Shown: piece after piece, positions 10,279-26,881 of the stretch
How the letters are laid out: every line of letters begins with the position of its first letter
How positions within the stretch are numbered: position 1 is the first letter of the stretch
Virus record (IMG/VR): IMGVR_UViG_3300042465_001304
Location: 1 to 26,881 of that record
Origin: a virus
Strand: one strand, 5' to 3'
Length of the DNA stretch: 26,881 nt
Position numbers and translations under genes: made by a program
The notes under the pieces: model-generated
What the model was told of the DNA's origin: nothing
Database searches by the model: none
The model's input: the letters and a program-made list of their open reading frames with translations, nothing else

Positions 10279-11013
10279 TTAACCTTGGTACATGCCAGTA
10301 TCGGGGATTACCGGGTAATTCCCGATACTGCCGCCACCGCCGCCACCAGGCAGCAATCTGTTCATCAAATTCTGATTCTGAGTGTAGTTGAGGTACTGCC
10401 CCAAAGCTCCGGTCAGCGCGTTGGCGCCGCCGATGTAGCCCGACGCCCGTGCAGACCCTGCACCCAGCATGCCCTGCGCGGCGGCTTGCCCACCGGCCAT
10501 CAGGTTCTGACCGTATTGACCGGCAAAGTTCTGCCCCAGACCACTCATCACGCCTGCGGCGCGGGGGCCGACGTCAGCCAGCCCGGCCAGACGGTTGTAC
10601 GCCGCGCCGAACTCCTGTGAGCCGAGGTCTTGGCCGTACCGCTGCGCGGCCTTCAGCGCACCGCCCGAGATCAGCCCACCCCGCGCCGCGGCTTGGCGGT
10701 CCAGCGCCTTCATGCCTTCGCTCAGACGAAACTGGTAGCCGGGGTCCATCTGCAGGAAGTTCTGCGCTGCGCCAGGCCCGCCGCTCATCAGCGAGCGCAG
10801 TCGGTTGTAGTCCTCAGTCCCGCCTTGCAGAAACGGCTGCTGCCGGCCAATGTTCTCTTCGTAGATGCGCTGCTGCAGCGCGTTAGCCTCGCGGCTGGCC
10901 TGCAGTTGCGCATCGGCGGCGTCCCGCGCGGCGCCGGCTTGCGTCTTGGCTGCGCTTCGGGAAGAAGCAGCACCCAGAACTGCCGAGCCGATGATGGCGG
11001 CTTCAATGCCCAT
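10279..11013 (-). CDS. Putative DNA-transfer/ejection protein (P22 gp7 position)
   Basis: A 244-aa, Gly/Ala/Gln-rich protein. The N-terminus starts with a hydrophobic stretch (AAIIGSAVLGAASS) followed by a helical Gln/Ala region. The middle has LQMDPGYQFRLSEGMKALDRQAAARGGLISGGALKAAQRYGQDLGSQEF, a pattern I recognise from phage DNA-transfer/ejection-type proteins. The C-terminus is a poly-Gly linker then GNYPVIPDTG. The ATG at 11013 has AGGAGG six bases upstream and overlaps the GNAT-like gene by 11 bp. It is the first of three consecutive ejection candidates. Confidence 0.77.
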   Translation of the reverse strand: MGIEAAIIGSAVLGAASSRSAAKTQAGAARDAADAQLQASREANALQQRIYEENIGRQQPFLQGGTEDYNRLRSLMSGGPGAAQNFLQMDPGYQFRLSEGMKALDRQAAARGGLISGGALKAAQRYGQDLGSQEFGAAYNRLAGLADVGPRAAGVMSGLGQNFAGQYGQNLMAGGQAAAQGMLGAGSARASGYIGGANALTGALGQYLNYTQNQNLMNRLLPGGGGGGSIGNYPVIPDTGMYQG

Positions 11014-11374
11014 GATGAGCCTCCTTTACGAACATCCCGTCAGGCTGTTCAGTGAACCCCAATCGCTTGAGGATGTCGTTCATATACTCATGCCCCGGCG
11101 TCACGCGGGTGGTTACGCGGTCCTTGGCAAACAGTTCTTTCAACACACCCTTAGTCGCCCAGCGCTTACGCCACTCAGGCGCCACAGAAGCGTGTACTTC
11201 GTCGTCTTTGAAAAACGCCGCGCCGATGCACTGACCGTCACGCTCAATAGCTTTGACGTCCCAGTCGGCCACCGCTGCGGCGTAGGTGTCAAAATCCATC
11301 GGGCGTGACCAATCCGTAGCCGCGTAACCGACTTGCAAGGCTTCGCTACGGTTGGGTACTAGCCGAGTGGTCAC
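11003..11374 (-). CDS. GNAT-like protein in the virion operon
   Basis: A 123-aa protein with a fold pattern like GNAT acetyltransferases. VKAIERDGQCIGAAFF looks like strands 2-4, VAPEWRKRWATKGVLKELF suggests the region before and into helix 3, and TRVTPGHEYMNDILKRLGF gives the familiar C-terminal GNAT ending. The usual R/Q-x-x-G-x-G/A acetyl-CoA loop is not clear, so it may be inactive. GNAT-like proteins also occur among podoviral internal virion genes, where they are structural or assembly-related. GTG start at 11374, in a GTGA overlap with the preceding gene. Confidence 0.66.
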   Translation of the reverse strand: MTTRLVPNRSEALQVGYAATDWSRPMDFDTYAAAVADWDVKAIERDGQCIGAAFFKDDEVHASVAPEWRKRWATKGVLKELFAKDRVTTRVTPGHEYMNDILKRLGFTEQPDGMFVKEAHHGH

Positions 11375-11716: not shown

Positions 11717-13603
11717 TTACGGGAAACACTCTACGTTGCAAACCACGGAGGAATTACCAGTAATGACGGTGATGGTAAAACCGTCAATATCATATGACGT
11801 CATGTTTGCAGCCGCCACTACTGTACCTGCGCTGTCTTTGATGTTGATAACGCCCGTATCGCCGCCGCCGCGTCGGCCTGTTCCGTCCACCGAGCTAAAA
11901 ATTACCGTGCCCGACGTGCCGTCATGCGTACCCACAGACGTAAACGCCTGCGTAGTTGACGTAAGCACCGCAGTAATTCGCAAAGCGCGGGGGCGAAACC
12001 CGATGCCTGTGATGGATTGCAGACCGGCGCTGGCGTTGAGTTGAAACGTAACGTATCGGAACGGCGGCAACAGCGCGCCAGTCCGGTCGTAGTTATTTAG
12101 TGTGTAGCAGCCCGTACCAAACCGAGCCGCCGTCAGGTTGTAGTAAGTGGCGGTCTTCTGCTCTGCAAAGTCGTTGTTGTAGATGGCGACGTTGGTGCAC
12201 GCTGCGCCGGCACCGCCAAAACCAATGGCTGCGTACTGCGTCTTCGTCCCTTGACGGTCGCCAATCCGGTTGCCGTGGATCTGGATGTGGTCGGGCTGGC
12301 TAGGCGCAGCGACCGAGCCGATAATGGTGATACCGTTTGAAAACGGGTAGTACGCTGTGTCTTGCCCGTTGTTGAAAATCATGTTGTCAGCAATCGTGAC
12401 GTTTTGAACGTCCGAAAGTGCGATGCCTTCAGCAGCGCAACCGTCAATTGTGTTGCCTACGATTATTGTGTATGGCGAGCCACATTCAATTCCCGACCCA
12501 GAAATGTTAGACCGGGTAGCGCCGGTAATCGTATTGTTTTCAATGCGAAGGTACGCGCCAGTGTCGTTGCAAAAGACCGTAGATTCGCCGTTATCGGCGC
12601 AGTTGTTGTTTGTAAATGACCCTCTGGTCGGCATAAAGTACGCGGCAGACCAGTTGTTATCGCGGAAAAAATTGTTCTCTACACGCGCGTCATAGGGTGT
12701 CCCCAACACAGACGTCGCAATCCAGAGCGCCGGGGCGCTGACCGTAGACGGAATGGGGCGCCCGTTGTTGGTGAAGTAGCACTCTGTAACCACCATGTTG
12801 CTGTTGGCCGTCATGGCTAACGCAATGTACGTGTGATTCTGGAAACCGCAGTTGGAGAACGTGACGTTCTGCACCTTGGCGATACCCACAAGCTCACCTG
12901 TGCGAGTGGAGTTGTTGTTGCCGTCAAACGTCAGCCCGTAGAACTCCAAGTCGGTGTCGTAGTAGACATTGACCGTACCTGAGATGATCTCGTTGCGGAT
13001 TGCGGTCACGCCTGCCCCGAACCCGGAGGTCAGCTTGATGATCGACTTGTTCATCCCCTCGCCGATCAGCGTCGTCTTGGTCTTGACGAGCAGCGTCGTG
13101 GAGATGCGGTAGGTGCCCGCGGGGAAGTAGACGCTGCGCCCGGTGCCGGCGTTCAGCGCGTTCTGGATCGCCGTGGTGTCGTCAGTAGTGCCGTCGCCCG
13201 TGGCGCCGAAATCTTTGACCGACAACGACTGGCGCAAACGCGCTTGGACCGTGGTGGCCACCGCGCCCGTGCCCGACTGAACGTACCCTACAAGACTGGA
13301 GCCATTGGACGCGGACAGTGTGGTCAGCGCCGAAATGACGTCGATGTTGTCCACCGTCCAGATCTCAACGTCAGTGGCTGAGGTCAGCTTGAGCTTGTAC
13401 GAAGCATTACCCAGCCACACAGACGCCTCGCCTCGGCTGTCAAGAATGACGGGATTGGTGTTGGCCACCAGGCCACTGGCCGAGGTGTACGTCAGCAGCG
13501 GCGTGGTCGTGCCGGCTGCATAGGAGTACAGCTTCCCGCCAGACAGAGGCACGCCGTTGGCGTCAAAGAACTGAAGTTTGGGTGCGGGCGAGAGAATGGC
13601 CAT
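11717..13603 (-). CDS. Tailspike with right-handed beta-helix (pectate-lyase-like)
   Basis: A 628-aa receptor-binding protein. Residues 1-90 are a tail-attachment module (FFDANGVPLSGGKLYSYAAGT, NPVILDSRGEASVWL, YKLKL) common to podoviral fibres. Then SVKDFGATGDGTTDDTTAIQNAL opens a pectate-lyase-3 type parallel beta-helix with repeated Asn-rich turns (VENNFFRDNN, IENNTITGA, IADNMIFNNG, IHGNRIGD). The C-terminal 120 residues are a beta-rich cap. It probably binds and possibly depolymerises a surface polysaccharide; catalytic residues cannot be assigned. GAGG lies upstream of the ATG at 13603. This is the downstream one of two beta-helix spikes in the window and has the GC content of its neighbours. 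Confidence 0.88.
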   Translation of the reverse strand: MAILSPAPKLQFFDANGVPLSGGKLYSYAAGTTTPLLTYTSASGLVANTNPVILDSRGEASVWLGNASYKLKLTSATDVEIWTVDNIDVISALTTLSASNGSSLVGYVQSGTGAVATTVQARLRQSLSVKDFGATGDGTTDDTTAIQNALNAGTGRSVYFPAGTYRISTTLLVKTKTTLIGEGMNKSIIKLTSGFGAGVTAIRNEIISGTVNVYYDTDLEFYGLTFDGNNNSTRTGELVGIAKVQNVTFSNCGFQNHTYIALAMTANSNMVVTECYFTNNGRPIPSTVSAPALWIATSVLGTPYDARVENNFFRDNNWSAAYFMPTRGSFTNNNCADNGESTVFCNDTGAYLRIENNTITGATRSNISGSGIECGSPYTIIVGNTIDGCAAEGIALSDVQNVTIADNMIFNNGQDTAYYPFSNGITIIGSVAAPSQPDHIQIHGNRIGDRQGTKTQYAAIGFGGAGAACTNVAIYNNDFAEQKTATYYNLTAARFGTGCYTLNNYDRTGALLPPFRYVTFQLNASAGLQSITGIGFRPRALRITAVLTSTTQAFTSVGTHDGTSGTVIFSSVDGTGRRGGGDTGVINIKDSAGTVVAAANMTSYDIDGFTITVITGNSSVVCNVECFP

Positions 13604-13605
13604 TT

Positions 13606-14229
13606 TTACCTCGGTACAAGGGTCATGGTTGGCGCCGCCGAATACGTCACGCGCAACCGATCATACGGGGAAAGCATGAGCATTCCGCTGGTGACGCCGA
13701 CACCAAAAAATGTCGCACCGTCCCGTGAGAATTCTATTTGAGACACAGTGCCTCCGCTGACAATAACGTCTGCGGTGACGCCGGTCTGGTTGATGTATGT
13801 GAACGGCGACGCGGTAACGGTGATAGCGCTGGGTGCGAGCCCATAGTTCTGCGGCGGCGGCGCAATGGGCGGCTGGTTGCCAATCTCCAAGTCCGCGCGC
13901 AGACTGGCGATGTTGGCGAAATAGTCAGCAGGCGGCTGGTTGCCAATCTCCAAGTCCGCGCGCAGACTGGCGATGCTGGCGAAATAGTCAGCAGGCGGCA
14001 GTGTGCCGATCTCAGCGATGTTTGCGACTGCAGCTATTTCTGCGGTGTAATCAACCGGCGACGGAACTAACTGCAAATCTTCCAGCGTAGCGGCGCTTTG
14101 GCCGCTGCCTGTCAGCGTGAATAGGTTCAGCAAGAACCGATACCACTCACGCGAGATCAGGCCCGTGCGCTCATCAGTAAACGGCACACGCGGCGGCGTG
14201 ATATTGGTGATGTTCGGCGGGCTGGTCAT
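13606..14229 (-). CDS. Repeat-bearing tail protein (tail-needle position)
   Basis: A 207-aa protein directly after the gp10-like gene, where P22 encodes its tail needle gp26. The N-terminus (PPRVPFTDERTGLISREWYRFLLNLF) is a motif shared by many tail proteins. Residues about 60-123 hold three 21-residue repeats: one diverged, then two near-identical ones with core DYFA.IASLRADLEIGNQ. The C-terminal domain (SPFTYINQTG, DVIVSGGTVSQIEFSRDG) is a beta module common in phage tail proteins. Twenty-one residues equal three heptads, so a trimeric rod is possible, though each unit contains Pro-Pro. No sequence match to gp26 is evident, so the needle role is inferred from order only. Confidence 0.7.
   Translation of the reverse strand: MTSPPNITNITPPRVPFTDERTGLISREWYRFLLNLFTLTGSGQSAATLEDLQLVPSPVDYTAEIAAVANIAEIGTLPPADYFASIASLRADLEIGNQPPADYFANIASLRADLEIGNQPPIAPPPQNYGLAPSAITVTASPFTYINQTGVTADVIVSGGTVSQIEFSRDGATFFGVGVTSGMLMLSPYDRLRVTYSAAPTMTLVPR
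13868..13993 (-). repeat. Tandem repeat, two 63-bp units
   Basis: Unit A is 13868-13930 and unit B is 13931-13993. They differ at one base (T versus C in the gatg/ctggc part). A third, diverged unit follows from 13994 to about 14056. Each unit is 21 codons, so the tail-protein frame is kept. The near-identity suggests a recent duplication. Confidence 0.93.
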
Positions 14230-15767
14230 GCGTTGGTGCCGCTGATGTTCAACTCAGCACCCATGATGGCAATCTTTACGGGGTCTGTGCCACTGAGCTC
14301 GTACACGCGGTCGCGCAGCTTCAGCGTCATGCCTAGCCGGCGCCAGAACGCGCGGTGGCCATACTCTCCGACGCGGCCGATTGACGTCCAGTGTTCGTTT
14401 GACCAAGTGTGCCCGCCGTCATCACTCCAACGCAACATAACCTTGGGAGATGTCGTCAGCACCGCCGACGAAGTGACTGTCAATGGCACGCCGTTTTCAG
14501 TAATGATGATATATCCATTCTCAGCCGACAAAAACCCAAGAACAGTCTCAACAATTTCTGGTGGGTCGTAGACGTTGAGCCCCACGCCCGTTTCGCAGTC
14601 AAGCTGAAGCGTGTGGTGCGCTGTGCGTTTCAAATTGTTCTGGCCAGTGGGCAGCGCCCGCCACGACCGCAGCCATTTTTGCGCCGTGCCGTTGTCGGCG
14701 TACACATCCAAGTCCAGCGCGTAGATGTTGCCGTTCTCGTAGTCGCCCACCACGATCTCGTTGGCGAACGACATCTGGCAGTTGCCGCGGTGGCGTGTGA
14801 ACACGCCGTTTGGCGTGTCCCAGCCGGCACGCTCGTGCCAGGCGCTGGTAGACACGTCGTAAACCCAAGTGGTGTTGGCCGTGGGGAAGTTCAGCACATA
14901 GAAGGCGTGGCCGTCTTGCTGGTAGGTGTACCCCACCGCGTCGGCCAAGTTGCCATACTGCTGGATCTGCCACTCCACCGCGTGCGTGCTGATGCGCTGG
15001 CCCGTGTAGCCGTTTGCGCGGTAGACGATGCCGCGCCCGCGAGCATCCGAGCCCAGCCAGAACAACCCATTGTCCAGTCTGGCCACAGAGAACGCCGCAG
15101 CGCAACCGATCTCGTTGAACGCACCCTGAATCCGCGTCAGGGGAAAATCAGCGGCGCCGCTGTCGTACCAGACTTCGACCGAGTTGGTGCCGAAAAGCCA
15201 GGCTTCACGGTGGTCGATGATCAGGCTCACCAAGCCGTCTGGCGAGCCCTCTGCGCTCGCAAAGTCCAGCGGATCTACCGAGGTGCCATCCAGCAGGCTT
15301 GTGACCCATACGCGCTGGCTGGTAGGCTCGTTGAAGACGAAGTACCCGTCAAGGTAGCCGACCGTCACCGCGCCGGGGAAGTCTGGGTCTGTGATCTGCG
15401 CGAATTGACCCGAGCCGGAGTAGATGTAGCTGGGGCCGTTGCAGGCGATGAACAACTGCGTGCCGTTGTCGGCCATGCTGACCGGGCCGGTGCCCGTCAG
15501 CGTGCCGATTGTGGTCACCTGCCAACTGGAATCGACGCGGTACAGCGTGTTGCCGCTGGCCACATAGCCGTAACCGCCGAAGGCCCACAAACCTCGGACA
15601 GGCCCGCTGCCGACAGACGCCAACAGCCGCAGCCCCGGCGCGCGCTGCAAGAACGCCGGCTCCTTGCCTGCCTCCGGTACGATCTCCGGAAACAGATTGA
15701 TCATGCGGTTGTCCGCAGCATTGACGCTGCGGGCAACATACGCTGATCCAAGAATAGGCGTTTTCAT
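14226..15767 (-). CDS. P22 gp10-like packaged-DNA stabilisation protein (tail hub)
   Basis: A 513-aa protein matching the P22 gp10 family, which forms the hexameric tail hub and closes the portal after packaging. The start (PILGSAYVARSVNAADNRMINLFPE) and PAFLQRAPGLRLLASVGSGPVRGLW are typical. Later blocks include SLIIDHREAWLFGTNSVEVWYDSG and LFWLGSDARGRGIVY, and the C-terminal half has the beta-propeller-like pattern with WSDDGGHTWS and FWRRLG. P22 gp10 is 472 aa, so the length is close. ATGA overlaps occur with the upstream HExxH gene and the downstream tail-protein gene. With the gp4-like gene just upstream, the order follows P22. Confidence 0.92.
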   Translation of the reverse strand: MKTPILGSAYVARSVNAADNRMINLFPEIVPEAGKEPAFLQRAPGLRLLASVGSGPVRGLWAFGGYGYVASGNTLYRVDSSWQVTTIGTLTGTGPVSMADNGTQLFIACNGPSYIYSGSGQFAQITDPDFPGAVTVGYLDGYFVFNEPTSQRVWVTSLLDGTSVDPLDFASAEGSPDGLVSLIIDHREAWLFGTNSVEVWYDSGAADFPLTRIQGAFNEIGCAAAFSVARLDNGLFWLGSDARGRGIVYRANGYTGQRISTHAVEWQIQQYGNLADAVGYTYQQDGHAFYVLNFPTANTTWVYDVSTSAWHERAGWDTPNGVFTRHRGNCQMSFANEIVVGDYENGNIYALDLDVYADNGTAQKWLRSWRALPTGQNNLKRTAHHTLQLDCETGVGLNVYDPPEIVETVLGFLSAENGYIIITENGVPLTVTSSAVLTTSPKVMLRWSDDGGHTWSNEHWTSIGRVGEYGHRAFWRRLGMTLKLRDRVYELSGTDPVKIAIMGAELNISGTNA

Positions 15768-16048
15768 GCCGTGCTTACTTCAGCCGCGCGGGCTTCAACT
15801 TCCATCGGATTGTTCCGATAGCCGTAGCGGATTGTGTACCAGATGTAGAGCAGGTAGAACCGCCGCGCGCCGAGCATCTGGTACTGAAGCCAGTGCCGCT
15901 GCTCATGCCTGACAAGCGCCGTCTCGTTAATGCGCTCGGCTAGGATGAAGATGCCCAGCGGTGGCAGCGTGATGCCGCCATAGCCGAAGGTTCGCAAGAA
16001 CCAGCGGATGACGTGCTTTGCTGGCTTGGGCTCAATAGTTGCCAGCAT
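15764..16048 (-). CDS. Small HExxH (zincin-like) protein
   Basis: A 94-aa protein containing HEQRH (residues 48-52) in LVRHEQRHWLQYQMLG, an HExxH zinc-peptidase motif. A later acidic site (PMEVEARAAE, E83/E85/E90) could supply the third ligand, as in gluzincins. The segment FYLLYIWYTIRYGYRNNPMEVEARA resembles the ends of minimal metallopeptidase domains. The N-terminal half has a hydrophobic patch but no clear signal peptide. It lies between the gp4-like and gp10-like genes, overlapping the first by 17 bp and the second by 4 bp, so it is co-expressed with head-completion proteins. Peptidase activity is inferred from the motif only. Confidence 0.75.
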   Translation of the reverse strand: MLATIEPKPAKHVIRWFLRTFGYGGITLPPLGIFILAERINETALVRHEQRHWLQYQMLGARRFYLLYIWYTIRYGYRNNPMEVEARAAEVSTA

Positions 16049-17947: not shown

Positions 17948-19150
17948 TCAGCCCCAGAGACGGCAGGCCATCTGCGGACGAATGGTGCTGAAACCATACA
18001 GCACGTCGATCCGGCAAGGCATGCGGTCGTTGTTGATGTCGTACTGACGCACGACGCGCAGACTGATGCCATTGTGAACGGCACGCGCAGCCATGTCCAC
18101 GCCTTGGGGCAGGAGCAGGTCAGCGGTGGCGAACGTGATGGCATCCTTGTGGTACACCAAGTTCTGAGCGTACTGCGTAGAGGCAGCACCCACGAACACC
18201 ACAGCCTTGCTGGTAGCAGGCAGAGTGTTCACGGTAGCCAGAGCGTGGTTGGCCGAGTAGATCGGAGCCACGGTCACGGTAACGGCGGTGCCGCTGGCGG
18301 TGACGTCGGACAGCACGACGAACTGGAACAACGAGCCGGTGGACTCACGAGTCTGCGGGTTTACAGCGAAGCAGTCAGCCACGGTAAACACGTCGCCAGC
18401 CTTAATGGTGACGTTAGACGCCACGGTCAGTGCGATGGAGGTTGTGCCTTCAGCGGTAACTGCCGCAGAGGTGGTGTTGCCGGTAGCACCGCGCGAGCCG
18501 GTCGTGAACTGCTTGATTGACTGAGACATGTTGACTTCTTCGAAGCCAAGCACGCCAGTGCCCATCATGCCGTTCTTGAACTGCTTGCTGATGGTGTCGG
18601 TGGGATTGAACAGACCCTTCATGCCTTCCACCAAACCGGCGTTGGCAGCCGGGTTGACGGTAGCGTAGCGGGGCGACATCACAGCGGCGTTCTCGTTGAG
18701 CTTCTGCTGGGCTTGCAGCAGAACCAGCGAGGTGGCCGGCGTGGTGCCAGGGGTGCCCACAGAGTTACCGATGGTGCGGAAGGCGTTGGCAACGTCAGCG
18801 TCGATGCTGGAGGCCAATTGGCTGATACGAGGCTTCAGCACACGATCTGCGAAGTCGTCCAACTGCATCGTCAGTTCGGCGGACGTGAAGTTCACGCCGA
18901 TGTGCTTTTGCGAGGCGACCGTCAGGGTCGTGAACTGCTCATTGTCGTCCTGCACTTGCAGAGCGGCGCCGTCAGTCACCAGAGCGCGGTCCGGCAGGCG
19001 GATGCGCAGCGTGGAGCCGATCTTGGCCCCTTCAACAGCAAAGCTGTCGTCGTACTGGCGGTTCACGTTGCGCGTGAGCACCAAGTTGTTTTCCAGGATC
19101 TCCAGGGCCTTCCTGGTGATCATGTCAATGGTCAGAATACTATTGGCCAC
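17948..19150 (-). CDS. Major capsid protein, P22 coat-protein family
   Basis: A 400-aa protein of the P22 gp5-like coat family (HK97 fold). Typical blocks are ANSILTIDMITRKALEILENNLV and NRQYDDSFAVEGAKIGSTLRIRLP at the start, VNFTSAELTMQLDDFADRVLKPRISQLASSIDADV, and the C-terminal KDAITFATADLLLPQGV, RVVRQYDINNDRMPCRIDVLYGFSTIRPQMACRL. A Thr/Val-rich central insertion (about residues 230-290: ALTVASNVTIKAGDVFTVADCFAVNPQTRES) corresponds to the variable telokin-like I-domain region. The length is slightly under P22's 430. The start is GTG at 19150 with AAAGGAG six bases upstream, unusual for such an abundant protein. It follows the scaffold gene by 19 bp. Confidence 0.94.
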   Translation of the reverse strand: MANSILTIDMITRKALEILENNLVLTRNVNRQYDDSFAVEGAKIGSTLRIRLPDRALVTDGAALQVQDDNEQFTTLTVASQKHIGVNFTSAELTMQLDDFADRVLKPRISQLASSIDADVANAFRTIGNSVGTPGTTPATSLVLLQAQQKLNENAAVMSPRYATVNPAANAGLVEGMKGLFNPTDTISKQFKNGMMGTGVLGFEEVNMSQSIKQFTTGSRGATGNTTSAAVTAEGTTSIALTVASNVTIKAGDVFTVADCFAVNPQTRESTGSLFQFVVLSDVTASGTAVTVTVAPIYSANHALATVNTLPATSKAVVFVGAASTQYAQNLVYHKDAITFATADLLLPQGVDMAARAVHNGISLRVVRQYDINNDRMPCRIDVLYGFSTIRPQMACRLWG

Positions 19151-19169
19151 AGCGGGCTCCTTTCAAGTC

Positions 19170-19970
19170 TTAGCGGTTTGCTTGTGCCTGCATCTTTCGC
19201 ATCTGGCGGGCGCGTTCAGCTTCAATCCACTCCGACGTACTCATGCTCTTGATGGAACGCGGGTCAGTCGTGTCGTAAGACGGGTTGTTGCTGCTTCGGG
19301 CTGTGACAGGTGTGATCGGTGCTGGCGCTGACGTAGTTCGTTTGACGGGCGGATTGTCGGTCAGTCTGCCTTCAATCTTCCCAATTTCTTTTGCCTGCAA
19401 GAACGGCGACAAGCGCGAGATACGGTCCGCTTCTTTGGGGTTGGCTCCGAGGTAGTAGGCTACATCAGGGCCAACATCAGAAGCGCGGATCGTTTCAGCC
19501 ATCACGTCAGTGATTCGGACGCTCGGGTTGTAGGCGACTTGTTCAAAGTCGTCGTACTTGCTCCGGGCCTCTTCTTCTCTGTCGTGGTAGGCGTCAGCAA
19601 TCGCTGCCTGTGCCTTCTGCTGCTCTCGCAAGGCAATCAGTTCTTCGGCCTTCTTTACGGCCAGCGCCTCCGCGTAGGCTTCAGGAGACTCGAACTGATC
19701 AACTGGCGGAACATCTTTTGGCGCAGACTGCCGGGTTTGCATTTCTGCTGACCTGGCCGCTTGCTCTCGTTCCCACTTGCGCTGCTCTCTTGCAAGGCGC
19801 TTGCTGATCATTGCGTCGATCTCAGCTTGGGAGAACTTCTTCTCCTCTGCCGTCTGCTCGACTTGGTTCTCAGCTACTTCCGGCGAACTTGCTTCGACTT
19901 CAGGCGCAGCCGTTGCTGCCTGTGCCGGCGCGGAGTCTACTTCCGCTAGGACTTGGACTTCTTCAGTCAT
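19170..19970 (-). CDS. Putative scaffolding protein
   Basis: A 266-aa, strongly charged helical protein just before the coat gene, the standard scaffold position. The N-terminal part is acidic (Glu/Ala/Val rich), followed by a KFSQAEIDAMISKRLAREQRKWEREQ coiled-coil segment typical of phage scaffolds, then DQFESPEAYAEALAVKKAEELIALREQQKAQA. The C-terminus is basic (EWIEAERARQMRKMQAQANR), the part that binds coat protein in P22-like systems. No protease motif was seen, so scaffold is probably released intact as in P22. Assignment is from composition and position. Confidence 0.86.
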   Translation of the reverse strand: MTEEVQVLAEVDSAPAQAATAAPEVEASSPEVAENQVEQTAEEKKFSQAEIDAMISKRLAREQRKWEREQAARSAEMQTRQSAPKDVPPVDQFESPEAYAEALAVKKAEELIALREQQKAQAAIADAYHDREEEARSKYDDFEQVAYNPSVRITDVMAETIRASDVGPDVAYYLGANPKEADRISRLSPFLQAKEIGKIEGRLTDNPPVKRTTSAPAPITPVTARSSNNPSYDTTDPRSIKSMSTSEWIEAERARQMRKMQAQANR

Positions 19971-19987
19971 GGATGCTCACTAGAGCC

Positions 19988-20004
19988 CTGGTGAGCCTCA
20001 CCAG
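19988..20004 (-). promoter_or_regulatory. Stem-loop in scaffold gene leader
   Basis: A perfect 7-bp inverted repeat (CTGGTGA / TCACCAG) with a 3-base loop, 18 bases upstream of the scaffold ATG at 19970 on the minus strand. No T run follows, so it is not an intrinsic terminator. It could be an RNA-processing or translational control site for scaffold, whose level in P22 is tightly regulated. Role inferred. Confidence 0.42.
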
Positions 20005-20020
20005 TACGGTTATTTTAATC

Positions 20021-20275
20021 TTACACCAGATTAGTCTGGACGTTCATAGCTTTTTGGTAAGCATCAATCACTTCAAGCGTGTGGATAGATGCGGCAATGG
20101 CTTGCACCTTGGCATCTTCAGCGCTTACGTCAGCACCAGGCACGACAACGTGGCGGTGAAACTTGCTACTGATTTCAACGCCATCTTCTTTGATGGCGGT
20201 CTTGGTGCGAACTTGAATTACGTTGGATTCGATTACTTCAATCAAATCGACAGAGATAACTTTTTCGAGAGCCAT
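20021..20275 (-). CDS. Small partner protein downstream of the tailspike
   Basis: An 84-aa mixed alpha/beta protein from MALEKVISVDLIEVIES. The centre reads RTKTAIKEDGVEISSKFHRHVVVPGADVSAEDAKVQAI and the end is helical (IHTLEVIDAYQKAM). I recognise this as a short protein commonly found beside fibre or spike genes in environmental phages; a chaperone or capping role is possible but not shown. The ATG at 20275 with GGAAA upstream is preferred over TTG at 20290. It shares the lower GC of the spike gene 17 bp upstream and seems part of the same exchanged cassette. Confidence 0.7.
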   Translation of the reverse strand: MALEKVISVDLIEVIESNVIQVRTKTAIKEDGVEISSKFHRHVVVPGADVSAEDAKVQAIAASIHTLEVIDAYQKAMNVQTNLV

Positions 20276-20292
20276 GATATTTCCAATCAAAA

Positions 20293-22407
20293 TTAATTAA
20301 CAAATTTGCTGCGTAAATAGGCGCACTCTAAGGCAAGCGCTTCTTCGTAACGAATTCCATAGGATTCACCAGCCGCAACAGCCAAACGTTTTTCACCTGT
20401 TGGCACGCCATCCGCGTTACAGACTGGCTTGCCTTCTTTGTCAAGAACAGCCTCATACTGGTTTTCCCACTCATCCCAGCACAGGATGCCATAGGCAAAC
20501 GGGTCAAGATTTTCAGATTCAAAAGCCTCTTTGACACGCTGGGCAATCACTCCAAAGTGCCAACGTGCGCTGTCGCCTTTTTTTTCAACAGCGTGACTCA
20601 TCTTGAATTGAGCGTAATTTACTTTGCCCCAAGCCCGCAACACAGCTTCATCAATGCCGCCATCACGTTGCACCTTCAAGCGTTCGTCGGACGTGTTAAT
20701 CGCGCCGTTGACAGCAAAAACTTCAGACCAACGGTTTCCAGCAATACCCAACTTCATTGTGTTATTTGTAGCTGGATATAGGTCTCCGGTTGCGTTGACG
20801 ACAGTTTTTGATGTGTTGTCGTTTGTTCGCAATACCAGCGTGTTGGCCGTGTGGTCGTAGCTCACGCCTCCAATATAAGTGCCATCATTAAACCGTAAGT
20901 AACCTTCTTGACCTGTGAGTATTTGTTCTAAGTTAAATGAACCAACCGAATAGGCCTCAGTGCCACCAGCCACATTTCCAATGTAACGCTGAGTTGCTGC
21001 TCGAATTACGTTGTCCATCATTGTTACGTTTGCAAGTGATGTAACGGCATTCAAGTTGAATCCATACGATGTGGCGTGAGCAACGCTAACATTGATGTTC
21101 ATTCGGTTGTCATTCATCTGCAAATTTGGCAATCCCGAATTGCCAATAAAGAAGATTCCGCTAGGATTTGTGTCATAGCTTGCAAGACTGCCGAACTGCG
21201 GATTCGTTGCGTAGTTTGCTTTGATGTCGCTGATAACGTTGTTACTGATGACGCTGCCGTTTCCAATCAGCGCAAAGATGCCAGCAAATGCGCCAACGTT
21301 AGTAATCCAATTTTCTTCAATAATGGAAGGATCACCACCAGTTGCACCGACTGCAGCAACGTTAATCCCATAGCCACCAACATTTGTAATTTTGTTGCGG
21401 CTGATGGTTGCATTTCCAACAAAGCACATAATGCCGTTGGTGTAATCGTTGTCTTCATAAGCCGTGTTGTCGATTACGTTATCCGTAACTTGGGCATATA
21501 GACAATCTTCCTTGATGTCGATATATCCTTCATAAGTTCGAATATCACGCAAAATGTTATTTGTAACAATGGCGTTTCCAACGTCACGAATATAAATACC
21601 TTCGCAGTCTTCGCCATTTACATCGCTGTTTTGAATGTCCACAATGGTGTTGCCAGCAATGTAGCAAGCGTCAGCCTCGTGAATCATAAAAGCGTGAGTT
21701 TCACGCTGACCAGCAAATGTATTAAGAAATGCCGAAACAAAGTTGTTGGTGATTGACACCATTTTGCGTGTGGCTGGAACAACCAAGTCATATCCAAAAA
21801 AGACTGCTTGAACAGAACCAGACCCTGTAAATCCAGTAAACAAATTTCCGTCAATTACTGCATTGTCGCAGCGCTTAAAGGTCATTGAAAGACCCCAAGC
21901 TGTCAAAGTGTCAAAACGGCAACTTTGAATGTTTAGTTGACGCAAGCCGCTTTGTGTATTATCTCCAGCTAATCCATCTAAAAACAATGCACTTGTAGAG
22001 CCTGTAAATCGCACGCCAACAAATGACATTTCATCGTAAGGCAACACAACGCCAGCGCCAGGACGACCATAAATTATCTTACTAAATCTATTAAGCGTGA
22101 TGCTGTTAATGACAATGCTTTCTTCCATGTTCAGGAAGTTCACAAGCACAGCAGGGCCAGTGACCGTTGATTTGTCAATGCCTTCGCCGTAAATCCTAAT
22201 TGGACTTGTGATCGTTGGAGGCGACCAAGAGGTCAGCAAATACTCGCCCGCTGGAAAAAACAATTCCTGACCAGAAGCAGCTGCTGCATTTATTGCTGCC
22301 AACACAGCGGCTGAATCATTTGCAACACCATCTCCAACAGCGCCATAATCAAGCACATTGACTGGCGCGCCAGTAATCATCGAATAAGAAACTTTTGTTA
22401 GTGCCAC
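20293..22407 (-). CDS. Tailspike with beta-helix and C-terminal S74 chaperone/peptidase
   Basis: A 704-aa receptor-binding protein. The N-terminus (KVSYSMITGAPVNVLDYGAVGDGVANDSAAVLAAINA) enters a pectate-lyase-3 type beta-helix at once, without the long attachment module seen in the other spike. Asn-rich turns follow (VTNNILRDI, ISRNKITNV, IEENWITNV, ISNNVISDI, MNDNRMNIN). From about residue 570 an intramolecular chaperone of peptidase family S74 is clear: INTSDERLK with the expected Ser573/Lys578 pair, then HFGVIAQRVKEAFE and YEEALALECAYLR. The chaperone is expected to cleave itself off after trimerisation. GTG start at 22407 with AGGAGA upstream. The gene is about 40% GC in sampled stretches, far lower than the flanks. 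Confidence 0.9.
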   Translation of the reverse strand: MALTKVSYSMITGAPVNVLDYGAVGDGVANDSAAVLAAINAAAASGQELFFPAGEYLLTSWSPPTITSPIRIYGEGIDKSTVTGPAVLVNFLNMEESIVINSITLNRFSKIIYGRPGAGVVLPYDEMSFVGVRFTGSTSALFLDGLAGDNTQSGLRQLNIQSCRFDTLTAWGLSMTFKRCDNAVIDGNLFTGFTGSGSVQAVFFGYDLVVPATRKMVSITNNFVSAFLNTFAGQRETHAFMIHEADACYIAGNTIVDIQNSDVNGEDCEGIYIRDVGNAIVTNNILRDIRTYEGYIDIKEDCLYAQVTDNVIDNTAYEDNDYTNGIMCFVGNATISRNKITNVGGYGINVAAVGATGGDPSIIEENWITNVGAFAGIFALIGNGSVISNNVISDIKANYATNPQFGSLASYDTNPSGIFFIGNSGLPNLQMNDNRMNINVSVAHATSYGFNLNAVTSLANVTMMDNVIRAATQRYIGNVAGGTEAYSVGSFNLEQILTGQEGYLRFNDGTYIGGVSYDHTANTLVLRTNDNTSKTVVNATGDLYPATNNTMKLGIAGNRWSEVFAVNGAINTSDERLKVQRDGGIDEAVLRAWGKVNYAQFKMSHAVEKKGDSARWHFGVIAQRVKEAFESENLDPFAYGILCWDEWENQYEAVLDKEGKPVCNADGVPTGEKRLAVAAGESYGIRYEEALALECAYLRSKFVN

Positions 22408-22419
22408 AAGTTTCTCCTA

Positions 22420-23052
22420 TTAAGCAACTAAAAATGAGCCTGCATACCGAATGGTGGCAGCAGTATCAATGGGAACGTCTGTAACAGCGCCACCTCCGAC
22501 TGGATACTGCAAAACTTCAGCGTAGGTTGCATTTCGTCTGAATGTGGCCTGAGCCACATTTAAAGCAGTCAATGTAACGTCACTAACTTGCAAACTAAGT
22601 GGGGGTTCAAGACTAGTCACGTTCAACACCGTGAATGGCAAACCAGAAAGCCTCATATTACCTGTGCCAGTGTGTGCGCTCCACACAATAGTCGCTGTCA
22701 CATAAACCAGATTTCCAATTTTTGTGTAATAACCAAGCTGGGTAGAATAAGTCCCAGTGCCAGCACTTGATGAGCCAGAAATGGTCGGGGTGAATGTGCC
22801 TTCTTCATAGTCGCTGAACAACTCGCTTGTGCCTGTGCCCGGTGTGGCAGAAAAGTCGACGCCTTGACCAGATGTGCCAACAATAAAATTTCCTGTTGAC
22901 GCAGTAACCGCCGTTGCGCTAATTGCGCGGCCAGCAGTCAAGTTGGCAACGCTGACTTGTCTTGTTACACCACTTTGAACAATCGGCAGCACCTCAGTGC
23001 CGGCAAGCGGTGTAGTTGACGCCGGTAGGGCGGATATTTTTAAGTCAGCCAT
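22420..23052 (-). CDS. Short tail-fibre-like protein
   Basis: A 210-aa beta-rich protein upstream of the S74 spike. The N-terminus (ADLKISALPASTTPLAGTEVLPIVQSG...VSVANLTAG) is the standard anchoring motif of small phage fibres and is shared in outline with the next gene upstream. The middle has SELFSDYEEGTFTPTISG, GTGTYSTQLGYYTKIGNLVYVTATIVW, a recurrent domain of environmental phage tail proteins. The C-terminus ends TAATIRYAGSFLVA. It probably attaches to the virion by the N-terminus and supports or presents a receptor-binding head. AGGGAC precedes the ATG. GC is low. Confidence 0.8.
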   Translation of the reverse strand: MADLKISALPASTTPLAGTEVLPIVQSGVTRQVSVANLTAGRAISATAVTASTGNFIVGTSGQGVDFSATPGTGTSELFSDYEEGTFTPTISGSSSAGTGTYSTQLGYYTKIGNLVYVTATIVWSAHTGTGNMRLSGLPFTVLNVTSLEPPLSLQVSDVTLTALNVAQATFRRNATYAEVLQYPVGGGAVTDVPIDTAATIRYAGSFLVA

Positions 23053-23061
23053 GATTGTCCC

Positions 23062-23373
23062 TTAGACGTAGTTGACTTCAATTGTTGAAGTAGCCGGAGG
23101 TGCTTCGGAAAAGGTAAGCGTTGTACTTGCAACAGAAAAGCTGCTGTGGTTTTGATACACGCCGTTGATGTATACGTCTAAACCGTTTGGCGCTTTGGTC
23201 AACGTAAACGCGACTTGAGCGCCAGTTCCTGTAAACACATCGGTTGTTTGTGCGCTAAATAACGAAGCAACTGTTGCCTTAACAGTTGCTCCATTTTGCA
23301 CTGCGGGGACAATGTCCGTGCTACCTAACGGGATCGTAGCTGGCGGCAGTTGGGAGATTTTTATGGTACTCAT
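23062..23373 (-). CDS. Small virion anchor/fibre-base protein
   Basis: A 103-aa protein starting STIKISQLPPATIPLGSTDIVPAVQNGATVKATVASL, the same type of anchor motif as the next protein (KISALPAS...TEVLPIVQSG). It is followed by a compact beta module (FTGTGAQVAFTLTKAPNGLDVYINGVYQNHSSFSV and TLTFSEAPPATSTIEVNYV) known from many tail proteins. It may be an adaptor carrying the same virion-binding module as the fibre. ATGA overlap with the preceding 52-aa gene; its own ribosome site is poor, so translation is probably coupled. Confidence 0.76.
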   Translation of the reverse strand: MSTIKISQLPPATIPLGSTDIVPAVQNGATVKATVASLFSAQTTDVFTGTGAQVAFTLTKAPNGLDVYINGVYQNHSSFSVASTTLTFSEAPPATSTIEVNYV

Positions 23374-23528
23374 AAAAGTATCTGGCCTTCATCTTCTTGC
23401 ACAAGGTTGTCGCTACTCTCGGTAAGAAGGTTGTCTTGGGCCTGCTCGTTTCCACGCCCGCCAAAAAGCGAGATGATGCCGCCCAGCCCAAGGGCGACGG
23501 CGTTGCGAAAGGCTACACCGAAGCTCAT
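23370..23528 (-). CDS. 52-aa small protein with Gly/Leu-rich N-terminus
   Basis: A 52-aa protein recovered from overlapping starts and stops. The N-terminal half has a mildly hydrophobic Gly-rich stretch (AVALGLGGIISLFGG) that could insert in or lie along a membrane. The second half is acidic and polar (NEQAQDNLLTESSDNLVQEDEG). It has ATGA overlaps with both neighbours, which supports it being real. Function unknown; virion or membrane peptide are both possible. Confidence 0.66.
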   Translation of the reverse strand: MSFGVAFRNAVALGLGGIISLFGGRGNEQAQDNLLTESSDNLVQEDEGQILL

Positions 23529-23833
23529 TGCTTGTTGATCGGTTTGGCGTAAGCAGTGCCGTCAGTGCTGCCGATTCGCAGCACGCTGACGCGCCAAGGA
23601 GCGCCGCTGGTGTTGAGGGGCACCCCAAACGGGATGGGGGTGAAAGACGGAATTGGGGTGCTGGCGCTGGTAGCCACGGCCCCAACGCCCACCTGAACGT
23701 AGCAGGGCACTTCAGACCACACCACCACACCTTGGGGACCAGCGCCCCATGCCGTCGTGTTGCCCGCAGAGGCTCCGGCAGTTGCGGAGTAAGCGGGAAA
23801 ATCCGCTTGGCTCATTGGATTAAGAAGTTCCAT
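23525..23833 (-). CDS. Small beta-rich structural protein
   Basis: A 102-aa protein with MELLNPMSQADFPAYSATAGASAGNTTAWGAGPQGVVVWSEVPCYVQVG, then VPLNTSGAPWRVSVLRIGSTDGTAYAKPINKQ. The 'SEVPCYVQVGVGA-TA' and 'PWRVSVLRI' parts are features of small virion proteins that sit near tail or head genes in environmental podoviruses. The ATG at 23833 has AAGGAA upstream. No enzymatic motif. It overlaps the next gene by 4 bp. Confidence 0.7.
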   Translation of the reverse strand: MELLNPMSQADFPAYSATAGASAGNTTAWGAGPQGVVVWSEVPCYVQVGVGAVATSASTPIPSFTPIPFGVPLNTSGAPWRVSVLRIGSTDGTAYAKPINKQ

Positions 23834-23842
23834 TGTGATTCC

Positions 23843-23965
23843 TTACGCAAAAAATTTCAGTTTGGCTTTCATCACAAAACGCCTGTACCACCCAGCAATT
23901 TTGTGCGCGAACTTCTTGTGCAGCGGCCAAGACAGGTTGTCCGGCAGATCGTTGTAAATGTACAT
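23843..23965 (-). CDS. 40-aa basic protein
   Basis: A 40-aa protein, MYIYNDLPDNLSWPLHKKFAH then KIAGWYRRFVMKAKLKFFA, aromatic and basic toward the C-terminus. It fills the gap between two virion genes with no unused space: four bases after the upstream stop and nine before the next ATG. The composition (W, Y, F, K, R) is not like antisense noise. It has no strong Shine-Dalgarno, so re-initiation after the upstream gene is likely. Family unknown. Confidence 0.6.
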   Translation of the reverse strand: MYIYNDLPDNLSWPLHKKFAHKIAGWYRRFVMKAKLKFFA

Positions 23966-23969
23966 GGTG

Positions 23970-24275
23970 TCAGGCGTAGTAAGAAATGTTCAACTTGGCG
24001 CCAGCGCTTTGCTGAATGAAGCGAATTCTGGAGATGTCGCCGTCGTACTGCAAAGTCACACCGGCTGCAAGAGGCATCCCAACCGATGCTGTAGGCACAC
24101 CACCATCATCACGCCACCGCACGGCGGCGGCTTCACAACTGATTAGCGCAAACGAAGGCCGGCAATTCAGCCCGTTGGCGTCCGTAGTCGGAGCGCTAAG
24201 CCCGGTTGACGCGGATAGGGTCGCAATCTGCTCGTAGCCGATGCAAGATGTGATGGCTTTGAGGTTGATGGCCAC
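23970..24275 (-). CDS. Small conserved virion protein, GTG start
   Basis: A 101-aa protein, AINLKAITSCIGYEQIATLSAS at the start, then FALISCEAAAVRWRDDGGVPTASVGMPL and ISRIRFIQQSAGAKLNISYYA at the end. This pattern (a compact beta-barrel-like protein with VRWRDDG and a closing aromatic SYY) recurs in phage structural operons and is usually unnamed. GTG at 24275 has GGGAG upstream. It overlaps the preceding 46-aa gene by zero bases and is followed by the 40-aa gene. Confidence 0.74.
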   Translation of the reverse strand: MAINLKAITSCIGYEQIATLSASTGLSAPTTDANGLNCRPSFALISCEAAAVRWRDDGGVPTASVGMPLAAGVTLQYDGDISRIRFIQQSAGAKLNISYYA

Positions 24276-24416
24276 TTAGAATCTCCCGCGTTCAGTGAAC
24301 GAGCGCAATTTTACATAGGGTTGAGAAGAAGAGAACGGGGGCGTGGGCCCGCCCTCCACCGGAGGGAAGAAGTACCCCGAGAAGAACGCTGCAGCGAAGT
24401 ACGTCTTAGGAAACAT
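24276..24416 (-). CDS. 46-aa YFA-type small virion protein
   Basis: A 46-aa protein beginning MFPKTYFAAAFFSGYFFPPVEGG, with a polar basic tail (SQPYVKLRSFTERGRF). The start resembles very short phage proteins of the form 'M...YFA..YF...YFP' found between structural genes. It overlaps the end of the 284-aa gene by 11 bp and abuts the next gene's start. No good ribosome site is visible, so translational coupling is assumed. Function unknown. Confidence 0.66.
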   Translation of the reverse strand: MFPKTYFAAAFFSGYFFPPVEGGPTPPFSSSQPYVKLRSFTERGRF

Positions 24417-25260
24417 CGTAAGTCACGCCTGTGCGGTTGCCGTTAGCATCTACTGTGGCCGTAATCCGTACTGTAGTGCCATTCACGCTCTTGATCAAAA
24501 TGGGCCCGCCAGGCGAGCCTGCCAGTTCGCCTGCGGCAGAGGCAGAAATCAGCTTTAGCAAGTCGCTGGCAGTGTACGTCCCGTCGATGACTTCCGTCCA
24601 CGGGTTGGCCGCGCTGCCGGCGTCGTTGAGCTTCTCGCCCATCGTGCCAGCGACGTTGTACGCACTGGCTAAAGCGCTCCAGACCGCTGCGGACAGCGAC
24701 TGCGGGCTGAGTTCGGTAAACGGTGTGATGTCGCCGCTCAAATTTCCCGTGGCCCTGATCGTGGCACTGTTTGAGAACTGCACCAGCGCAGCGCCCACGG
24801 CGTCGACGATGGCGCCGAGCGTGGCGTTGTTGACCGTGAACGAGAAGGACGTGCTGCCAGATGCGGACAGGGCACCAGCCAAGTTGGCCGCAAGGTTGAA
24901 CGTGATCGACGTGGAGCCGACCGCCGAGACGATCAGTTGCCCGTCTGCCGGGTTGACAGTAATCGTGACCGTCGAGTCGCCGCTGATGTTGACGCCAGCC
25001 GCAAGATTTAGCAGCCCCGGCGTGACCGTCACCACGCACTGCGTGAACGACGACATCGCCCCAGGCTTATAGGGCAGCACCCACGACGATGGAGCCAAGT
25101 GCCCGCTGGGGATGCCTGCCAGCTTGGACGGGATGCCCTGGCCTACGGACTGGTTCATCCGGTCGCCACGCCCCCACATGGAACGGAAAGTTCCAGGCGA
25201 GCCGCCGATCTGGCGCAGGGGTAGCTGCGCCAGGAGCGTGGTGTTTGTCTTGAGAGCCAT
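24406..25260 (-). CDS. Beta-rich virion protein with C-terminal conserved domain
   Basis: A 284-aa protein. The N-terminus (RQIGGSPGTFRSMWGRGDRMNQSVGQGIPSKLAGIPSGHLAP) is Gly/Pro-rich. The middle is a long Ser/Thr/Ala/Asn-rich beta stretch with pseudo-repeats (SGDSTVTITV, VGSTSITFNLAANL, SGSTSFSFTVNNATL, ATIRATGNLSGD). The C-terminal 95 residues (LSAAVWSALASAYNVAGTMGEKLNDAG through ILIKSVNGTTVRITATVDANGNRTGVTYD) match a domain common at the ends of phage tail proteins. Likely an adhesin-like or fibre protein. ATG 25260, six bases after the previous gene. Confidence 0.72.
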   Translation of the reverse strand: MALKTNTTLLAQLPLRQIGGSPGTFRSMWGRGDRMNQSVGQGIPSKLAGIPSGHLAPSSWVLPYKPGAMSSFTQCVVTVTPGLLNLAAGVNISGDSTVTITVNPADGQLIVSAVGSTSITFNLAANLAGALSASGSTSFSFTVNNATLGAIVDAVGAALVQFSNSATIRATGNLSGDITPFTELSPQSLSAAVWSALASAYNVAGTMGEKLNDAGSAANPWTEVIDGTYTASDLLKLISASAAGELAGSPGGPILIKSVNGTTVRITATVDANGNRTGVTYDVS

Positions 25261-25266
25261 GCCCGA

Positions 25267-26145
25267 TCAGCCCCAGCCGACCTCGACCGCGCCGTAGAAG
25301 TTGGTGGACGCCGCCGTAGCCGCACCCGCGAAGTAGAGCCACGTGAGACAGGCACCGTCCATGACGCGAGGAAGGCTCGGCAGTTGGTTGAGCAGATCCC
25401 GCTCGGCAGCGACGGACACGGTGGTCAGCGGCAGCGTCAGCAAAGGCCGCGCAAGGCACAGCGCCCCGGTGCCGGTGTTGGCCGCGCTGAAGGTGACCGT
25501 CGCCACGGTAGACACGCCCGTGTCGCCCGATGCCAGGGGTAGGAAGGGACCGTAGTTGTTGGCAGCCGTGCCGCTGTGGCTGATGTGCCCCACGATGCCG
25601 GAAGCCGTCATGGCGACCGTCACCGGCAGGCTGCGGCCCGAGGTGGGCACTGTGTTGCTGTAGCTCAGCGCGATGTTCTGCGCCGTGGCGCCCGCTGCAG
25701 CGGTTTGCACCCAGAACAACCTGCACCCGGCCCCGTTGGTGTAGCGCAGGCTGGGCGTGCCCGTCAGGGTTTGCGCCACCGCGCTGTTGTTCGTGATACC
25801 GGGCCAGTAGCCCTGCAAGTCCACCAGCATCAACTGCGCCGGAACGCCTGTCGCCACAGAAGTGAGCGCCGAGACGTTCAGAACGTGCTTGGTGTCTGGA
25901 CTGACATTCCCGCCGTGCGGCAGGCCGAAAATCTGCGTGCCGTTGCCGGTGGTTTCGTCGCAAGTGCGCCAAGCCAGCGCAGTGCCAGCCCAGGCGTTGG
26001 CGACAGGCGTTCCGGCCAAACCGCTGAAGTCATACCACCGGCCTGCGGTGTAGGCTGCAGCGCCCGTGAGTTTGTTCCAGTCGGCGCGGTTGAACTTGCC
26101 GCTTGTGATCTCGTTGACGAGATCGTCCATTGAACTGAATGGCAT
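25267..26145 (-). CDS. Virion protein, paralogue B of a tandem pair
   Basis: A 292-aa, beta-rich protein with an N-terminal helical lead (FSSMDDLVNEITSGKFNRADWNKLTGA). Its second half lines up with the neighbouring partial gene: RYTNGAGCRL against RYTDGEGVRM, NNYGPFLPLASGDTGVSTV against AGPFFPLADGDRGVRSV, LCLARPLLTLPL against MLLAKPLFTMSA, and LPSLPRVMDGACLTWLYF against QAALPRIYDGAFLNYIYN. So the two genes are tandem duplicates that have diverged. The family is a structural one without a known name to me. AAGGAA precedes the ATG at 26145. It lies upstream of the head genes, where portal-proximal or fibre genes would be expected. Confidence 0.76.
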   Translation of the reverse strand: MPFSSMDDLVNEITSGKFNRADWNKLTGAAAYTAGRWYDFSGLAGTPVANAWAGTALAWRTCDETTGNGTQIFGLPHGGNVSPDTKHVLNVSALTSVATGVPAQLMLVDLQGYWPGITNNSAVAQTLTGTPSLRYTNGAGCRLFWVQTAAAGATAQNIALSYSNTVPTSGRSLPVTVAMTASGIVGHISHSGTAANNYGPFLPLASGDTGVSTVATVTFSAANTGTGALCLARPLLTLPLTTVSVAAERDLLNQLPSLPRVMDGACLTWLYFAGAATAASTNFYGAVEVGWG

Positions 26146-26154
26146 GGTGATTCC

Positions 26155-26881
26155 TTACGGTGTCCAGATGAATTGCGCCTGACCCACCATCGGCAACAAG
26201 CCGCTTGTCTGGGTGGATATGTTGTAGATGTAGTTGAGAAACGCGCCGTCGTAGATTCTGGGCAACGCTGCCTGCTCACGAAGGAAGTTTTTTTCAACGG
26301 TTGACGACAACTCGTTGGCGGACATCGTGAACAGCGGCTTGGCCAACAGCATCACGCCGAACCCGCCCACGCCTGTCGTAAGCTGCACAGACTGCACAGA
26401 CCGCACGCCCCGGTCACCATCGGCCAGCGGGAAGAACGGCCCTGCAGAGCCCCCGGAGGTGCTGATCATGTTGGGTCCAATGACAGCAATGCCGCCCGAG
26501 GCTCTGTACGCTGTCGTAATGGTCTTGGCAACGCCGTCTTGGTTGGTGTAGTTGATGGTGATGTTCGTGGCAGTGTTTGTTCCAGGCGTTTGCATCATCA
26601 TCAGCATCCGCACACCCTCACCGTCTGTGTATCGCGGCAAGGTCACATCGTTGGTCAAGTCTTGCTGGTCGGTGTTGTCTAGGTCGATGTACGGGTAAAA
26701 CATCAAATAGTCGAGAAAGTAGACCGAAGGCAGAAAGCCGGTTGTTCCGCCATGCGTCAAAGACATGCTGAGCAGATACCGCTCAGACACGCCCGCAGGC
26801 CCGACATAGATGCTGTTGTTGCGCTGGCCGATGAGTTGCGTGGCCTCAAGCGCGGTGCCAACGTATGCGTTGTAAGACGGG
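26155..26881 (-). CDS. Virion protein, paralogue A of a tandem pair (5' end beyond window)
   Basis: At least 241 residues are visible and the frame is open to the window edge, so the true start lies outside; the GTG at 26790 is internal to the alignment with its paralogue and is not the start. The visible part begins SYNAYVGTALEATQLIGQ and contains RYTDGEGVRMLMMMQTPG, SAGPFFPLADGDRGVRSVQSV, MLLAKPLFTM and ALPRIYDGAFLNYIYN, matching the downstream gene throughout. Likely a capsid- or tail-associated beta protein. It is followed by paralogue B after 9 bp. Confidence 0.76.
   Translation of the reverse strand, partial: PSYNAYVGTALEATQLIGQRNNSIYVGPAGVSERYLLSMSLTHGGTTGFLPSVYFLDYLMFYPYIDLDNTDQQDLTNDVTLPRYTDGEGVRMLMMMQTPGTNTATNITINYTNQDGVAKTITTAYRASGGIAVIGPNMISTSGGSAGPFFPLADGDRGVRSVQSVQLTTGVGGFGVMLLAKPLFTMSANELSSTVEKNFLREQAALPRIYDGAFLNYIYNISTQTSGLLPMVGQAQFIWTP

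Follow-up and report, generated by a model that had tools for sequence, protein, structure and literature searches.

The virus record IMGVR_UViG_3300042465_001304, a linear uncultivated record of 26,881 bases (referred to here as the window), very probably carries an exchangeable receptor-binding cassette at positions 20021–23373. The cassette lies at a standing exchange site of a freshwater P22-like lineage, with the portal-side genes on one side and the scaffold gene on the other. Its four genes were named C, B, TSP1 and A; they are read from the minus strand in the order C, B, TSP1, A and are followed by the scaffold gene. A preliminary description of the sequence had proposed a horizontally acquired host-range module in a P22-like genome. 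The module and its exchange were retained, while the idea of a single isolated acquisition gave way to that of a standing exchange site. We computed the base composition, the domain content, the exchange at the site and the linkage between gene A and the knob domain of B directly. The features discussed are the following.

20021–20275, minus strand: gene A, 84 residues, PHROG 6228 (function unknown; E 7.7e-21)
20293–22407, minus strand: TSP1, tailspike of 704 residues with pectate-lyase-type start, beta-helix and C-terminal S74 domain
22420–23052, minus strand: B, short fibre of 210 residues with N-terminal KISALP-type segment and C-terminal knob (residues ~80–210)
23062–23373, minus strand: C, 103 residues, B-like N-terminus and short DUF4183-like domain
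17948–19970, minus strand: right flank, conserved backbone with coat (17948–19150) and scaffold (19170–19970)
20012–23891, no strand: stretch replaced in the near relative L007, with matching DNA as far as 20011 and from 23892 onwards
20010–23410, no strand: best-fitting low-GC segment in a one-segment likelihood fit
11717–13603, minus strand: TSP2, second beta-helix tailspike of ordinary GC content, used as internal control

This exchange site is hypervariable among relatives of the coat protein. These were the best 80 relatives from a coat scan, of which more exist, together with two GenBank records. Between matching flanks, the near relative L007 carries other genes at this spot, one of which encodes 389 residues. 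A gene similar to the latter is found in a second relative, L041, where it shows a carbohydrate-binding match of 22.4 bits, below the Pfam cut-off of 25.9. A search for such flanks with other contents had been suggested in the preliminary description, and these two relatives provide them. At the DNA level, positions 20501–22000 are not matched by any fetched locus, and coat and scaffold are matched by more than 100. Among the 35 relatives with both genes, the gap between portal and scaffold is 694–796 bp in eight and 1933–6559 bp in 27. P22 and P26218, in contrast to these relatives and to the window with its cassette before the scaffold gene, have no gap between portal and scaffold.

Presence of the knob cassette was counted in the 53 relatives in which a recognised scaffold gene has 2.5 kb or more of upstream sequence. 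The cassette is at the site in 18 of them, and 15 of these 18 also have gene A. A looser BLAST count revealed any of A, B and TSP1 in 29 of 52 relatives, which includes matches to the N-terminal motif of B alone. In a tree built from coat DNA (54 rows), no fewer than 11 gains or losses must be assumed for the knob cassette, and the two rows nearest to the window, L002 and L003, are without it. The same cassette at the same spot throughout the lineage, with equal GC content, was not observed.

Exchange of receptor-binding genes among phages is expected. It becomes measurable at a defined site which, within one lineage, can be empty, filled or occupied by alternative genes. In marine metaviromic islands, according to the part of the report considered here (PMC3909814), host-recognition genes likewise vary most between co-existing lineages. 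The freshwater P22-like lineage of the window differs in having a defined site with these three states and also a GC signature; ‘GC content’ is not a phrase used in the marine text.

The cassette is set off from its surroundings by base composition. Its GC content is 45.8% (1534 of 3353 bases), that of the remaining window 60.5%. Plotting GC content and codon use across the window, as proposed beforehand, revealed a low-GC block at the cassette, and the two counts given at the outset (48 of 120 bases in 21421–21540, 42 of 60 in 24781–24840) are exact. With a step of 100, the 3353-base stretch of lowest GC content starts at 20000 (0.458), and no such stretch clear of the cassette is below 0.577. 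For the likelihood fit, the left edge was allowed to fall in 18000–21500 and the right edge in 21600–25500; GC content was 0.456 inside and 0.605 outside the segment, with a log-likelihood gain of 134. The block is sharp and its edges coincide with gene borders. Predicted promoters and terminators in 19900–23700 showed no excess over shuffled sequences (5 versus 4.5 and 3 versus 5.5).

The low-GC signal sits at silent sites. Pooled GC content at four-fold degenerate sites is 0.39 in the cassette versus 0.71 elsewhere, the lowest other gene being scaffold (0.56). GC content at third codon positions (GC3) is 0.478 for A, 0.417 for TSP1, 0.408 for B and 0.442 for C, and ranges from 0.603 to 0.826 in the 18 other listed genes. 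The codon-use distance is extreme for TSP1 (z 24.3) and B (11.5). C (3.8) and A (3.4) alone are not exceptional in this respect, because coat (8.0) and two ejection genes (3.3 and 3.6) deviate too; GC3 of the latter three genes is nonetheless high (0.65–0.78). TSP2 is ordinary by both measures (GC3 0.717, z 1.4). The dip is therefore not a general property of tailspikes, and an intrinsic AT-richness of this gene class is ruled out by TSP2 from the same genome.

Low GC content might still be native, if adhesion genes evolve fast and become richer in AT where they are, with nothing imported. The dip is found in 28 of the 29 relatives which carry cassette genes, as a constant bias would give. Even in relatives without recognised cassette genes, GC content is lower upstream of the scaffold gene in 17 of 23 cases (mean difference −0.020), which would be in line with drift. 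However, TSP2, a gene of the same kind in the same genome, has normal GC3, the GC content of the cassette is independent of that of its flanks (see below), the limit of the low-GC block is also that of the DNA similarity to L007, and the nearest relatives of the window do not have the cassette. Drift in place is thus largely refuted and we regard it as very unlikely.

The preliminary description had also called for a search for the same cassette within other flanks, and this was found. Of 80 loci fetched with gene A, 73 had enough downstream sequence, and the scaffold gene is next in 49 of these. None of the tested genes of the P22 lineage was in reach in 19 of the 80. We sampled ten neighbour proteins from four of these 19 loci and one protein from a fifth (L207, L201, L231, L256, L257). 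Clearly other head genes (terminase, head–tail adaptor) were detected only in L207, which is the clearest case. L201 and L231 carry ejection-type families and may therefore be distant P22-like phages with the cassette placed elsewhere.

The GC content of the cassette was 0.417 in 19 distinct loci of the P22 lineage and 0.408 in 10 others; loci with less than 6 kb upstream of A, near-copies and five A-fetched loci already present were left out of this count. It is not correlated with the GC content of the flanks (rho 0.09, p 0.65), which favours a circulating pool of cassettes with a composition of its own. The cassette of the window (45.8%) is somewhat above this pool (~41%). Low GC content marks a shared cassette pool and not one recent arrival; the reading as a host-range module is largely supported.

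The arrangement might also result from a joining of two phages in one metagenomic contig. This would be compatible with the record being an uncultivated linear fragment and with the lack of a relative for TSP1 as a whole, but the order C–B–tailspike–A–scaffold recurs in independent contigs and in GenBank record OR003940, so that we consider an assembly artefact extremely improbable. OR003940 is phage DSL-LC05, for which the family Luchaoviridae has been proposed (PMC10611076). Its coat protein is 80.5% identical to that of the window, and the same spot holds the domain of C, then B, a tailspike, A and the scaffold gene. It differs in the middle part of the tailspike, in an additional small gene that separates the tailspike from A, and in the fusion of the C domain to a TSP2-like N-terminus. 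The cassette is not discussed in the part of PMC10611076 considered, and the words ‘tailspike’ and ‘pectate lyase’ are absent from that text. A second small gene of ~90 residues between tailspike and A, with an end like HLKTLPEF.GA.DC, was seen in several cassettes (L082, 14257–14547; L005; L090).

Several further results weigh against an exchangeable cassette. On the coat tree, the knob-cassette labels are clustered beyond chance (11 changes versus a shuffled mean of 15.9, with one of 500 shuffles as low), which means that inheritance within subclades occurs too. No donor of the cassette could be named, as a scan of viral contigs with the whole TSP1 protein revealed no relative (three pattern matches, none confirmed); in phage records, DNA matches span at most 18% of the cassette and no protein match spans 80% of TSP1. 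The left neighbour of the cassette could only be inferred, because the portal gene lies outside the window. In the lineage of the window, the distances of A follow those of scaffold (rho 0.41) and not those of the knob (−0.01) or of the TSP1 N-terminus (−0.08), so that A may be part of the backbone. A was not found to diverge together with the knob of B, its supposed client. This counts against a rigid four-gene unit, but as a test of co-divergence it is weak, since distances among knobs are almost saturated (median 0.69). The right edge of the module as first described is therefore blurred, since A diverges with scaffold and not with the cassette.

The preliminary description had combined a small partner gene, an S74 tailspike, a short fibre and an anchor protein into a receptor-binding module, and this is borne out by the tailspike, S74 and knob domains. 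The S74 domain of TSP1 scores 45.5 bits (Pfam cut-off 22). TSP1 has SDER at residue 573, with Ser–Asp at the cleavage site, aligned to the first residues of 3gud; TSP1 may undergo S74 autocleavage. The loci contain 95 distinct TSP1-like genes, and in 64 of these a D[YFL]GA motif is preceded by exactly 19 residues. The 77 such genes with no more than 25 residues before this motif have a consensus of approximately MSLTKVSYSMIxGAxxNVL. Short N-terminal peptides are thought to dock the second receptor-binding proteins of Klebsiella phages (from the part of PMC6872550 considered), and by analogy TSP1 may be docked by its N-terminal peptide. Like the anchor-branched systems of these phages, the window has a second tailspike which lacks its own anchor domain and begins with a short conserved peptide (PMC6872550, same part); a T4gp10-like branching domain, for which no search was made, was not seen in the window.

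The knob of B (C-terminal 130 residues) is predicted with pLDDT values mostly of 95–98, while the first 80 residues gave a low-confidence prediction. It matches the C-terminal tip of the Dettilon tailspike gp208 (PDB 6f7k) over 123 residues (Z 14.9, root-mean-square deviation 2.3) at 20% identity. In gp208 the knob ends a large tailspike, whereas in B it ends a short protein of 210 residues. C has an N-terminal motif in common with B. Its match to the Pfam DUF4183-like domain is below the cut-off (22.0 versus 25.1 bits), but the counterpart in relatives passes with 39.9 bits. We propose that C is an adaptor or a short tip protein. In relatives, the C-terminal domain of C follows a TSP2-like N-terminus (L024, 2450–2950; L082, 11641–12150) and not a B-like one as in the window, which suggests a swap of the attachment part.

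The following mode of action can be envisaged. C and B would be short proteins attached to the virion, B ending in a knob of the fibre-tip type. TSP1 would be a tailspike which binds or cuts surface polysaccharide and docks via its conserved N-terminal peptide of ~19 residues; its S74 domain would serve folding and then be cleaved off. A may assist the folding of the knob of B, or cap it. Recombination would swap cassettes within the lineage and beyond, with cassettes retaining their own GC content.

Gene A is closely linked to the knob domain. Each of the 106 distinct loci that extend 3 kb or more beyond A on the upstream side encodes the knob there, as do 23 of the 33 shorter ones (139 places in total). 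This set is biased as it was partly fetched with B, but sets not chosen by B agree (15 of 15 coat-fetched loci; 62 of 62 A-fetched loci before removal of near-copies). The coat-fetched set contains 15 loci with knob and A, three with the knob only, none with A only and 35 with neither. In the reverse direction, 11 of 125 knob places are without A within 3.5 kb. Knob and A adjoin in 64 places and are apart in 65, in 58 of which a TSP1-type gene lies between them. The link of A to TSP1-type genes is weaker: 13 loci with A have one and two do not, and A is missing from seven of the 20 loci that have TSP1-type genes.

A is carried by 47 GenBank phage records. DSL-LC05 and 17 others, chosen for variety, were examined; the 17 comprise T4- and T7-type cyanophages, pelagiphages, a roseophage, a methylophage, a record named siphophage Kolga EXVC016S and unclassified phages. 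The gene directly before A ends in the knob domain of B in all 17, and in DSL-LC05 a tailspike intervenes between knob gene and A. Within the lineage of the window, A is conserved (median p-distance 0.23) and the knob is variable (0.69), a pattern more in keeping with an aid to folding than with a variable adhesin.

The start of gene A is more likely the ATG at 20275 (84 residues, common to the relatives) than the listed TTG. AlphaFold2 predicts three strands followed by two helices (mean pLDDT 93.5). A Foldseek search for a solved fold like A gave no match at E 0.001, and the best VIA Z was 4.0, which is too low to be of use; a solved relative was not found by sequence either. Profile comparison with the chaperone V22 gp27 gave no match; Tfa and gp38 were not compared directly. 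Tandem duplications of gene A were observed in L027 (3836–4398) and L124 (3253–3755).

From linkage, size, conservation and predicted fold, we propose that A is a knob-specific fibre chaperone or cap. A might instead be a small part of the virion, such as a baseplate adaptor or a knob cap that remains attached, or it might act as an adhesin by itself. A adjoins structural genes in all records examined and shows no detectable homology to the known chaperone V22 gp27, as would fit such a part. On the other hand, its conservation next to a variable knob is unlike an adhesin, and its place downstream of the fibre gene is like that of the chaperones of T4, Mu and V22 (PMC7289586, in the part considered). 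We regard a virion part or adhesin as possible but on balance doubtful.

Returning to a chaperone or cap, PHROG 6228 may be a widespread family whose very small members serve as fibre chaperones or caps for a single knob fold, namely the DYEEGTFTPT domain with its relationship to the Dettilon tip, and the pair of knob and A may move as a building block among P22-, T7- and T4-like phages and a siphophage of aquatic bacteria. We put this forward tentatively, giving it nearly an even chance. A literature search by knob motif or phrog_6228 retrieved no paper; other searches brought up related work, and the results considered contained no report of the gene pair. The pairing of A with the knob over many phage types provides a testable function for a family annotated as unknown only, and such a function would help anyone producing knob fibres.

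Similar arrangements are described in the parts of two reports considered here. Alteromonas phages A5, V22 and P24 have a fibre with a downstream small protein across morphologies (PMC10579305); their chaperones are DUF4376 proteins of 195–240 residues, whereas A has 84. In Pam3 gp24–gp25 (PMC9608196), the chaperone likewise combines a strand domain, which binds the fibre tip, with a helical domain. However, gp25 has 162 residues, about twice as many as A, for which the fold search gave no convincing relative of solved structure.

The P22-like nature of the backbone, also claimed beforehand, was confirmed by the coat Pfam domain (PF11651, 142.5 bits) and by PHROG matches for Hc3 (441 bits), DNA ejection (130 bits) and scaffold (108.5 bits). 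P22-type coat, scaffold, head-closure and ejection genes are found in P22 order. In genome assemblies, coat relatives (18 loci) occur in metagenome-assembled genomes of Rhodoferax and Burkholderiales and in a Rhizorhabdus isolate, and also in bins of other phyla, which may be mis-binned. The TSP2 region is variable at the DNA level, with few loci matching 12001–14000 though its GC content is normal, and this points to a second exchangeable receptor-binding gene in the phage.

Other genes of the window deserve mention. Two neighbouring GC-rich genes (25267–26145 and 26155–26880) are paralogues, about one-third identical through their L007 counterparts, and gave no family match; the near relatives L007 and L041 also have both. 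Among the tail and ejection genes, 11003–11374 is a possible N-acyltransferase gene according to a weak PHROG match, with homologues in three of 82 loci of the coat set, one of them 100% identical. A small gene at 15764–16048, between gp10 and the gp4-type adaptor, is present in only one locus of the coat set (L024, 91%) and looks like an insertion.

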